Below, piece after piece: positions 52,101 to 55,115 of a stretch of 64,000 bases of DNA; positions within the stretch are counted from its first letter, which is position 1, and each line of letters opens with the position of its first letter. Below the pieces are notes generated by a model that was not told where the DNA came from, ran no database searches, and saw nothing but the letters and a program-made list of their open reading frames with translations. The stretch comes from Vulcanimicrobiota bacterium (GTDB lineage Bacteria > Vulcanimicrobiota > Vulcanimicrobiia > Vulcanimicrobiales > Vulcanimicrobiaceae), in contig PLJL01000001.1 in assembly GCA_003140215.1 (NCBI GenBank), positions 824,390 to 888,389 of the forward strand, read 5' to 3'. The translations under genes and the position numbers were made by a program.

Positions 52101-52232
52101 CTATCCCGGCGGTCCGGACCCGCTGATCTCGTTCGGGGCGTCCGCGGTGACCGGCAGCGGGGCGACGGCGAGCGCCGAGGTCCCGATCGCGAGCGTGACG
52201 AGAAGCGCGAGCACGGCGAGTGGCGTGAGCAT
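52101..52232 (-). CDS. 43-residue exported peptide
   Basis: The ATG at 52232 is preceded by TTGGAGGAAACCGCT, a strong Shine-Dalgarno with eight bases of spacing. The peptide has a Sec-like hydrophobic N-terminus (MLTPLAVLALLVTLAIGTSA) with a likely cut after LA or VA, leaving about 19-21 residues (PLPVTADAPNEISGSGPPG). It has its own terminator and a structured leader. Options: a secreted signal for the neighbouring TPR-LuxR regulator, or a small hydrophobic toxin of type I systems, which share the leader-hairpin layout. An in-frame ATG at 52301 would add 23 polar residues encoded through the hairpin. Confidence 0.6.
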   Translation of the reverse strand: MLTPLAVLALLVTLAIGTSALAVAPLPVTADAPNEISGSGPPG

Positions 52233-52277: not shown

Positions 52278-52335
52278 CCGAGGTCTGGCTCCGCTTGCCA
52301 TGGCTATTCCTGGCTACTATCCGCCGGCAGCCGAA

Positions 52336-52353
52336 TTAGCCCGCTTGGGCTAA
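52336..52353. repeat. 7-bp stem, 4-nt loop hairpin
   Basis: TTAGCCC-GCTT-GGGCTAA is a perfect inverted repeat between the terminator of the c-di-GMP gene and the peptide gene. In the minus direction the loop is AAGC. There is no T-run, so it is not a terminator. It may lie in the promoter or leader of the peptide transcript. Confidence 0.5.
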
Positions 52354-52380
52354 CTCGCCCGGTGCCTCCCGCCCACGACG

Positions 52381-52409
52381 AAAAAACCCGGCCTGAACGC
52401 ACAGCCGGG
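52381..52409 (-). terminator. Rho-independent terminator of MHYT-GGDEF-EAL transcript
   Basis: CCCGGC and GCCGGG pair around an 11-nt loop and are followed on the minus strand by six T. It closes a 3' UTR of about 200 bases behind the c-di-GMP gene, longer than usual and rich in structure. Confidence 0.8.
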
Positions 52410-52417
52410 ATCGTGGG

Positions 52418-52470
52418 GGAGCGCCGGCCCGGGTGTGGGACGCCTCGGGTGAGGCATCGACCGGCGCTCC
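52418..52470 (-). ncRNA. Structured 3' UTR element: 10-bp stem enclosing a hairpin
   Basis: GGAGCGCCGG (52418-52427) and CCGGCGCTCC (52461-52470) are perfectly complementary and enclose a second perfect hairpin GCCTC-GGGT-GAGGC (52442-52455). The element sits between the triple hairpin array and the terminator of the MHYT-GGDEF-EAL gene. It is too far from a start codon to be a riboswitch for that gene. It might be the body of a 3'-derived small RNA. Confidence 0.5.
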
Positions 52471-52516: not shown

Positions 52517-52580
52517 GTCACCCGCAGGTGACAGCACGTCAGTCGCAACTGACAGCACGTCACCCGAGGGTGACAGCACG
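52517..52580 (-). repeat. Three tandem 21-nt hairpin units with compensatory changes
   Basis: Units begin at 52517, 52538 and 52559. Each is a 6-bp stem, a 4-nt loop and a 5-nt spacer (AGCAC on the plus strand). Stems are GTCACC/GGTGAC, GTCAGT/ACTGAC and GTCACC/GGTGAC: the middle unit differs at two base pairs and both partners changed together. Read on the minus strand the loops are TGCG, TGCG and CTCG, all fitting the stable YNCG tetraloop class, whereas the plus-strand loops fit no stable class. The array starts ten bases after the c-di-GMP gene's stop codon. Confidence 0.8.
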
Positions 52581-52589
52581 TCGGCCGCG

Positions 52590-55001
52590 TTAGGCGGCGA
52601 TCGGACCTGCGACCAGCAGCTGCTCGAAGCGCTCCGCGGATACGGGCTTGGAGAACAAGTACCCCTGACCGCAATCGCTGCGCAGCGCGACGAGCGTGGC
52701 GAGCTGCTGCTCCGTCTCGATGCCTTCGGCGACGACTCGCGCGCCGAGCGCGTGGGCCGCGGTGATCACCGCCGACGCGATCGCGCGGTCGACCGGGTTC
52801 TCGACGATGTCGGTTACGAAGCACATGTCGAGCTTCAGCGTGTCGACCACGTAGGAGCGCAGCGTCGCCAGCGAGTTATAGCCGATCCCGAAGTCGTCCA
52901 CGGCGATGCGGACGCCCAGGGCGCGCAGCTCCTTCACGACGGCGGCGTTGTACTCGATGTTCGCGCTGATGGCCGTTTCGGTCAGCTCGAGCTCGAGGAG
53001 TTCCGGGGCCAAGCCCGATTCGCGAAGCGCCGACTCCACGGTGCGGACGAAGTCGGGGTCGACGATTTGCTTCCCCGACACGTTCACGCTCACCCCGAGC
53101 TGGGGCGCGGTGCGGTTCCAGGCGGCATTTTGGATGCAGGCCGTACGCAAGACCCACGCCCCGATCGGCACGATCAGCCCGGATTCCTCGGCGTAGGGGA
53201 TGAAGTCGTTGGGCTGAACGACCGTTCCGTCGGGCTGCGGCCAACGGATGAGCGCCTCGCTCCCTCGCAGCGTGCCGTCGAGCGCGTAGATCGGTTGATA
53301 GGCGAGGGCGAAGGCTTCGTCGTGAAGCCCTTTGCGAAGGCGATAATCGAGGCGGTCCAGCGCAATGTCGTAGAGCACGAAACCGCCGCGACCGCGCTTG
53401 GCCGCGTACATCGCGACGTCCGCTTTCTTGAGCAGGGTCGCCGCATCGCGGCCGTGCAACGGCGACACCGCAAGTCCGATGCTGGCCGCAATGTTGATCA
53501 GACGGCCGTTGATGGCGCACGGCGGCAGCAACGAGGCGAGCAGCCGACGCGCGATCTCGGCGCCATCGGTTTCGCCGGTGCCCGGAAGCAGCACGGCGAA
53601 CTCGTCGCCGCCGAAGCGCGCGACGAGGTCGCCCTCGCGCAGCACGCCGCTGAGCCGCAACGCCACGTCCTGAAGCAAATTGTCGCCCGCAGCGTGACCC
53701 AGCGTGTCGTTGACGTCTTTGAAGCGATCGAGATCGATCAGCGCGAGCGCAACGGGTTCGCCGGTGCGCCCCGCGGCTTCCATGACCTGCGCCAGGCGTT
53801 GGTTCATAGCGGCGCGATTCGGCAGGCCGGTGAGCGCGTCGTGAAGCACTTGATGCTGCAAGGCCAGCTCGGCACACCGGCGCTCCGTGATGTCGGTCGC
53901 GACCGCGACGACACTATCCACTTGGCCGCCGACACGTACCGGCGTCCAGTGTGTCTCGAGAACGACGCCGTCCAGCGTGCTCAGCGCCGTGTGTTCGTCC
54001 CCGGCGAGCGCGCGCCGCGCCTGGGCGATCAGGGCCGGGGCGTCGCTATACAGCGTGAAGAACGAGCGTCCGATCATTTGCTCAGCGGGATGGCGGATCG
54101 CGGCGAGATCGCGTCCTTCGGCAATCGTGATGATGCCGGCTGCGTCGAACGCGAAGAGCACCACCGGCGCGTTCGCTACGACCATGCTGAGCCGGCGCTG
54201 GCTTTGGGCGAGCGCGGAATCCCGCGCGGCGAAGCGTCGATCCACGAATGCCAGCACGCTCGCGAAACCGCTTACCAGCAACGTGACGAACGCGATCGCG
54301 GCGCCGCCCACCGCGTCCCCGGTCAGAAGCCAGCCCGTGCTGGGCAGGCTCGCCACGCCGACGAACGTTGCAGCCGCCATCCCCGTGTAGTGCATCCCGG
54401 CGATCGCGACTCCCATGACGATGGCGGCACTCAGCCGGTGCAATCCAAACCGCCGGCTCGACACGGCCCGGAGATGGAAACTCAGCCGCAGCGCCACAAA
54501 GGAGAAGACGATCGCGACGACCGCCGAAAGCGCGATGATTCGCAGGTCCCAGCGCGTCGCCGCGGGCATCCGCATGGCGAGCATCCCGATGTAGTGCATG
54601 CTCCCGATCCCGGCGCCCATCACCACGGCGCCGCCCAGCGTCGACCGCCAAGTGATTCTCGGGCGTGAAACCGTGAACAAGGCGACCCCGCCGGCGAGCA
54701 TGGCAACCACCAGCGACAGGAAGACGATGGGAATGTCGTAGCTCACGTCGACCGGCAACCGGAACGCCAGCATACCGGTGAAGTGCATCGCCCACACGGC
54801 GCTCCCGAAGGTGATCGCGCCGCCCAGCAACCACACATAGCGGGTCCGGCCCTGGTGTTCGGCGATGCGTTCGCTGAGGGTCAGCCCAACGTACGCACCG
54901 ACGATCGCAATGGCGACGGACAGCGCGACGAGATGAAAATCATAGCCGCCGGCCAGCACGGCGCCGCCCGCCATCGGCATGCCGGCCCCGTGCATCACCA
55001 T
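52590..55001 (-). CDS. MHYT-PAS-GGDEF-EAL cyclic-di-GMP signalling protein
   Basis: About 803 residues from ATG 55001. Residues 1-205 are an MHYT membrane sensor with three motifs (AMHFTGM, SMHYIGM, GMHYTGM), proposed to bind copper, oxygen or similar ligands. A PAS domain follows at about 260-370, then a GGDEF diguanylate cyclase at about 375-540 with intact FGGDEFAVL, and an EAL phosphodiesterase at about 545-800 with SEALIRW, ELTETA, DDFGIGYNS and EGIETEQQ. Both catalytic sites look intact, so the protein could make and break c-di-GMP. Likely target: motility or the Tad pilus. Confidence 0.94.
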   Translation of the reverse strand: MVMHGAGMPMAGGAVLAGGYDFHLVALSVAIAIVGAYVGLTLSERIAEHQGRTRYVWLLGGAITFGSAVWAMHFTGMLAFRLPVDVSYDIPIVFLSLVVAMLAGGVALFTVSRPRITWRSTLGGAVVMGAGIGSMHYIGMLAMRMPAATRWDLRIIALSAVVAIVFSFVALRLSFHLRAVSSRRFGLHRLSAAIVMGVAIAGMHYTGMAAATFVGVASLPSTGWLLTGDAVGGAAIAFVTLLVSGFASVLAFVDRRFAARDSALAQSQRRLSMVVANAPVVLFAFDAAGIITIAEGRDLAAIRHPAEQMIGRSFFTLYSDAPALIAQARRALAGDEHTALSTLDGVVLETHWTPVRVGGQVDSVVAVATDITERRCAELALQHQVLHDALTGLPNRAAMNQRLAQVMEAAGRTGEPVALALIDLDRFKDVNDTLGHAAGDNLLQDVALRLSGVLREGDLVARFGGDEFAVLLPGTGETDGAEIARRLLASLLPPCAINGRLINIAASIGLAVSPLHGRDAATLLKKADVAMYAAKRGRGGFVLYDIALDRLDYRLRKGLHDEAFALAYQPIYALDGTLRGSEALIRWPQPDGTVVQPNDFIPYAEESGLIVPIGAWVLRTACIQNAAWNRTAPQLGVSVNVSGKQIVDPDFVRTVESALRESGLAPELLELELTETAISANIEYNAAVVKELRALGVRIAVDDFGIGYNSLATLRSYVVDTLKLDMCFVTDIVENPVDRAIASAVITAAHALGARVVAEGIETEQQLATLVALRSDCGQGYLFSKPVSAERFEQLLVAGPIAA

Positions 55002-55115
55002 AGCGACGCTGACTCGTGGCTCATGACCGGACGGTACGAGGCTATGGTAACGCGGCACGGTCGGCGCGGGCGGCACGGCGGGCGTTACCGCGCGCAGCCG
55101 CGGGCGGGCGCCTGC

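Follow-up and report, generated by a model that had tools for sequence, protein, structure and literature searches.

Directly behind the stop codon of a gene encoding an MHYT-PAS-GGDEF-EAL protein (828 aa), the c-di-GMP gene of this locus, lie three short palindromic units in head-to-tail order, followed by a terminator-like hairpin. Positions refer to the window, i.e. the whole stretch of 64,000 nucleotides that was analysed, and R1 denotes a covariance model of the unit that was built from 16 units. The locus comprises the following features:

52381..52409, minus strand: terminator-like hairpin CCCGGC...GCCGGG, then six T (found by eye; the stem is also present in the computed fold)
52517..52574, minus strand: long imperfect hairpin, the preferred predicted RNA fold, unit 1 pairing with unit 3 and unit 2 at the tip
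52517..52537: unit 1, GTCACC-CGCA-GGTGAC plus spacer AGCAC (R1 match at 52517-52543, 41.7 bits)
52538..52558: unit 2, GTCAGT-CGCA-ACTGAC plus spacer AGCAC (two paired changes compared to units 1 and 3; without R1 match)
52559..52579: unit 3, GTCACC-CGAG-GGTGAC plus spacer AGCAC (R1 match at 52559-52585, 36.1 bits)
52580..52585: GTCGGC directly after the array, resembling the GTCAGG found after the linker of dispersed copies
52590..55076, minus strand: gene for the MHYT-PAS-GGDEF-EAL protein, stop codon at 52590-52592

Confirmation of the tandem array

We confirmed that the array at 52517-52579 is real. Its units, each 21 nt long and all three in the same orientation, have perfect 6-bp stems and 4-nt loops and share the 5-nt spacer AGCAC. 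This agrees with the units and coordinates given by a first-pass annotation of this DNA, and TRF reported a tandem repeat at 52517-52582 with a period of 21 and a score of 90. The same annotation had described double changes in the middle unit that keep the pairing, and these were borne out: two stem pairs of unit 2 differ from those of units 1 and 3 (CC/GG to GT/AC), with both partners altered. The minus-strand loops of units 1-3 also read as described (TGCG, TGCG and CTCG). Among the 48 perfect hairpins with a 6-bp stem and a 4-nt loop in the 64-kb window, the array was the sole triple with constant spacing (spacings of 16-40), and evenly spaced hairpin triples (spacing 17-31) were found in 1 of 150 dinucleotide-preserving shuffles of the window (mean 0.007), a count for which likeness between the units was not demanded. 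No Rfam family matched the window at gathering score; weak matches to mir-602, CRISPR-DR29 and IRES_Bip were far below the cut-offs and were taken as chance.

Several smaller structures were observed nearby. A 10-bp perfect inverted repeat surrounds a smaller hairpin at 52418-52470, and within it the segment 52443-52452 shows complementarity to unit 3 at 52560-52569. A small 43-aa ORF that begins with hydrophobic residues (52101-52232, minus strand), which by eye resembles a secreted or membrane peptide, is preceded by a further inverted repeat at 52332-52357.

Transcription and predicted RNA fold

The first stem base on the minus strand (52574) lies 15 nt past the stop codon of the MHYT-PAS-GGDEF-EAL gene, so that the position right after the c-di-GMP gene, as originally reported, holds. 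Because it is directly 3' of this minus-strand stop codon and ahead of the terminator-like hairpin (whose 11-nt loop is beyond the range of the hairpin scan, hence its absence from the scan's list), the array is probably transcribed together with the gene. The 63-nt minus-strand RNA was predicted to form a single long hairpin with -39.6 kcal/mol and a z of -5.5, compared to -27.7 kcal/mol for three separate hairpins, and the plus-strand RNA behaved similarly (-33.4 and -26.6 kcal/mol, respectively). The long hairpin is favoured because units 1 and 3 pair mutually while unit 2 forms the tip; as unit 2 is thus a hairpin tip in this structure too, its paired changes cannot discriminate between the two folds. 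The three hairpins of the first-pass annotation stand as palindromic units in the sequence, but not as the predicted RNA structure, which is a single long hairpin.

The array had been interpreted as a set of sites, specific to this gene, for an RNA-binding protein such as CsrA, or as an mRNA stability cassette. CsrA recognises a GGA motif in a hairpin loop. Even spacing, kept pairing and minus-strand loops of the YNCG class would all suit binding sites of this kind, and a CsrA gene is present in the host genome (one copy), yet GGA does not occur on either strand of the array, and the predicted fold provides one long hairpin instead of three.

Homologues of the gene in related genomes

The locus was compared within a set of 98 genomes, the host genome among them. 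The best homologues in other genomes covered nearly the full-length protein and showed 78% (G001), 65% (G003) and 66% (G008) identity, all within the same genus. On reading, the array was absent from approximately 400 nt past the 3' end of the gene matches in these three genomes, and likewise past two adjacent paralogues in G003 and G008. R1, applied to eight gene loci, gave a best match of only E 0.097 (in G001), where a recognisable repeat was absent on reading. G001 has a different downstream gene, and the two adjacent paralogues of G003 lie in one open frame, so the comparison is confined to where the match ends and does not extend to the region as a whole. Absence from close relatives had been named beforehand as the result that would speak against a function in the RNA; the array is missing at the homologues, in three other species which, at 65-78% protein identity, are not very close.

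Dispersed copies of the unit in the host genome

When the host genome was searched with the array itself, pieces turned up at other places, and on reading these the unit proved to lie within a longer repeat. A covariance-model search, which had been proposed as a check on the array, was run with R1 and retrieved at least 36 places in the host genome at E <= 0.1, with units 1 and 3 of the window making up two of them and unit 2 not counted. At most 77 candidates were scored per genome under strict filters, which makes these counts lower bounds and leaves absence elsewhere unproven. The common pattern in the host genome is TCA, a further stem of 2-3 bp, a loop of 3-4 nt, TGAC, a short linker and GTCA. 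In the 97 other genomes, R1 gave one or two matches in 17: G013 (E 2.9e-4), G078 (E 0.004) and 15 genomes at 0.013-0.1, a range in which chance alone would account for about ten genomes and E-values are approximate. On reading, the G078 match appears to be chance, and the one in G013 (G013:C32:11663-11687), from a different genus, is a genuine copy of the longer element described below. It closely resembles the most frequent subgroup in the host genome, and G013 is without an exact parent repeat; the copy hints at either transfer or old age.

A second search used GTGACASCACGTCA, which fixes the 3' half of the hairpin and the linker. It was found at 9 places in the host genome and at none in the 97 others, and its reversed control once in the 98 genomes. 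The 5' half, which the search leaves unconstrained, was complementary at all nine places; this is an independent test of kept pairing. At least one copy of the linker, a match with a single mismatch at C5:959769, has the hairpin missing. As the R1 counts and the GTGACASCACGTCA pattern agree, the unit has expanded in the host species, within the reach of the searches. Pair counts on alignment A1 (100% of cells paired, nine cells altered on both sides) are circular, because the A1 copies were chosen for complementary cores, and R1 matches are biased to paired copies since the model includes the hairpin.

Across copies the outer TCA/TGA is constant, and the inner stem bases and the loop vary. Inner-stem cores include CC/GG, CG/CG, GC/GC, GGC/GCC and CGC/GCG, with GT/AC in unit 2 of the window, and plus-strand loops in other copies include CCCA, GAT, GAA and GCA, so the YNCG class pointed out in the array is not kept. 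A constant outer TCA/TGA around variable inner bases and loop is what would be expected of two half-sites, and the units could accordingly be read as a repeated operator, that is, duplex DNA sites of the form GTCA-N8-TGAC for a dimeric DNA-binding or nucleoid protein, for which a 21-bp unit spacing close to two helical turns would also be suitable. However, the inner stem bases change pairwise, which a DNA site does not need, and copies also occur inside ORFs and nested in a longer palindrome; we consider this explanation very unlikely. A gene-specific array for an RNA-binding protein appears more improbable still: in addition to the lack of GGA and the single predicted hairpin, the unit is dispersed in the genome, its loops differ between copies and the homologues are without the array. 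A CsrA array was rejected, and a binding or stability cassette built for this gene is not supported.

Tandem copies were also seen elsewhere. Two units GTCAGC-CGCA-GCTGAC lie at C4:1155780 in the host genome, and two units with linker ATGC, the first imperfect, at C5:449531. A strict two-unit pattern, searched in 99 family genomes, was found in the window, at C4:1155791 and at one place in G053. With three regular units, the window array exceeds any other copy read. The two-unit pattern gave no match in a genome-contig and none in a viral-contig collection, both of which may omit the host and near genomes. The one-unit pattern matched once, in a Gammaproteobacteria MAG; the match was inside an ORF and without the arms of the repeat, and was judged chance. 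Plasmid and phage collections returned 8 and 25 records, respectively, at E <= 10, the best five of each having E 1 to 4 and covering at most 32% of the query.

The longer element and its parent repeat

In 29 of the 36 copies, the unit carries the left arm TTCGAC of a longer palindrome (at most one mismatch); those without it are units 1 and 3 of the window, C4:117675, C4:1155780, C5:449531, C4:619497 and C4:283667. Alignment of 28 distinct copies with the arm revealed three nested stems, CCCT/AGGG, GAC/GTC and TCAC/GTGA. Eight copies share the identical 25 nt CTCACGCGCACGTGACTCCGTCAGG, and four elements of this type were each predicted to fold into one rod at -25 to -29 kcal/mol. The longer form corresponds to a parent repeat with the hairpin and linker placed between GCTCA and GG. 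The parent repeat reads CC(C)TTCGACRRGCTCAGG and, in many copies, continues with GTGACA or ACAGGC. Without the inner hairpin it is abundant across the bacterial family: exact TTCGACRRGCTCAGG was found in 42 of the 98 genomes, some with a single match, with 34 copies in the host genome, 115 in G001, 160 in G002, 162 in G003, 183 in G008 and 255 in G044, and its reversed control gave 0 or 1 per genome. Within one genus, exact counts ranged from 0 in G004 up to 183 in G008. In G060, from another genus, three to six parent repeats follow one another head-to-tail at a period of approximately 29 nt, joined by short, similar linkers, which indicates that tandem growth occurs elsewhere in the repeat family. 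The loci read there (L184, L186, L187 and L191) show such arrays and also a variant in which the stem ATGC/GCAT replaces CCCT/AGGG, a compensated stem change in this genome as well. In the literature text searched, the parent-repeat strings were found in no paper except for one matching miRNA-seq paper.

According to rough, home-made gene calls, 22 of the 36 copies are intergenic, 11 lie inside ORFs and 3 overlap ORFs (the window array accounting for two). Twelve copies lie between genes of the same direction, eight opposed to them and four aligned. This spread of placement and strand does not fit a strand-specific RNA signal of 3' regions. The function in the RNA of the c-di-GMP gene, as initially proposed, keeps in its favour the position directly past the stop codon, the probable transcription and the kept pairing, while the dispersal of the unit and the mixed strands count against it. 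With the same rough calls, 12 of the 14 copies in or overlapping ORFs are on the strand of the ORF, which is non-random. One copy (G000:C5:348517-348543) lies inside an ORF that by eye resembles an ABC transporter, to which it adds a short insert.

Discussion

Overall, the array very probably derives from a dispersed, REP-like palindromic repeat that has expanded at the species level, its inner hairpin being iterated here as three units head to tail. The units look like copies of a dispersed repeat and not like a purpose-built control device, and the array is not specific to the c-di-GMP gene. Counting against this explanation are the lack of the TTCGAC arm and the three regular units of the window array, the shared strand of the 12 of 14 ORF copies, and the linker without hairpin at C5:959769.

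Copies would have spread as short hairpin-forming DNA, via some transposase or through replication errors. The Y1 transposase PF01797 was not found in the host genome (86.7% complete), and one of 13 searched genomes was positive (G006); mobility of the repeat is something we only infer, because no transposase was identified in the host genome. The window array may have originated by tandem duplication of one unit, through slippage or template switching at the hairpins and the repeated GTCA, and its outer arms would have been lost or never have been there. The paired stem changes could arise when the palindrome is copied or repaired as a hairpin, or they could reflect selection for pairing.

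REP-like repeats are already well known, and many dispersed copies of a short palindrome, the hallmark of REPs in the broad sense, were found here (at least 36 copies of the unit, 34 exact copies of the parent repeat). PMC3733652 describes GTAG and CGTC REPs as numerous dispersed short palindromes with compensating stem changes, which have a patchy distribution among species and frequently lie behind genes, occasionally in ORFs; the repeat described here is similar in all these respects and, like the CGTC REPs of that source, is without a known transposase. It differs from GTAG REPs and REPINs in that the conserved GTAG is absent from the flanks of the 36 copies and no RAYT-type Y1 transposase was found in the host genome (86.7% complete), and a RAYT-driven REPIN was rejected for the latter reason. 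CGTC REPs have an 8-9-bp stem and a loop of 4-5 nt (PMC3733652), whereas the loop of the reversed parent repeat, GAGCYYGTCGA, measures 11 nt. At one end CGTC REPs have an unpaired CGTC or TGTC tag; the reversed repeat starts with TGTCA, but its TCA can pair with TGA. According to PMC3733652, head-to-tail REP dimers are absent or under-represented in most genomes, and the REPs described there differ from our repeat, in which a second hairpin is nested in the loop of the parent repeat and units follow head-to-tail.

Tandem arrays of evenly spaced REPs are described for Pseudomonas fluorescens SBW25 in PMC3116915, and our array resembles these in hairpin formation, compensatory changes and tandem even spacing. 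The initial statement that no element of this form had been described was therefore too strong, as tandem short palindromes exist among REPs. REPINs are REP doublets tied to RAYT (PMC3116915), whereas no Y1 transposase was found in the host genome and the units are 21 bp apart. BIMEs, as outlined in PMC2817692, are also regularly spaced clusters of REP-like palindromes, but alternate in REP orientation, whereas all three units of the array have one orientation. Taken together, the repeat family is without the GTAG tag or the CGTC loop size and shows a nested hairpin as well as head-to-tail arrays.

Within the 3' region of the gene, the RNA of the array would form a single long hairpin that may, as a by-product, shield the mRNA or impede ribosomes at the stop codon. 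In E. coli, REPs reduce translation when near stop codons and stabilise mRNA when located in 3' regions (PMC12306157). The placement of the array permits either effect, and any effect on the RNA would be secondary. An alternative explanation is that a copy which arrived as a dispersed repeat has been put to use and is now kept as a 3' exonuclease block or as a ribosome hindrance at the stop codon. The 15-nt distance to the stop codon, the predicted stability of the RNA hairpin (-39.6 kcal/mol, z -5.5) and the effects of REPs in E. coli are consistent with such a role, but the array is missing at the homologues in G001, G003 and G008 and copies are not restricted to 3' regions, and we regard this alternative as rather unlikely. 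The proposal of the first-pass annotation is, taken as a whole, partly supported.

Beyond the iterated REP-like repeat, a bolder reading, which we hold tentatively and consider possible rather than probable, is that a previously undescribed hairpin-repeat family of this bacterial group spreads free of RAYT, incorporates a further hairpin in its loop and lengthens by entire palindromic units of 21 bp; in one species, the inner hairpin would have reached dozens of copies and given rise to free-standing tandem arrays. If this is true, the copying of a hairpin into a hairpin with complementary stems would be a new route of multiplication for REP-like DNA. The locus also corrects a tempting reading, as pairing kept in a 3' region mimics a regulatory RNA and a dispersed palindrome leaves the same signature. 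The repeat family is also of use in its own right: comparing parent copies, inner-hairpin copies and tandem arrays across the species of one genus and family may allow the rise and multiplication of REP-like repeats without a known transposase to be traced step by step.
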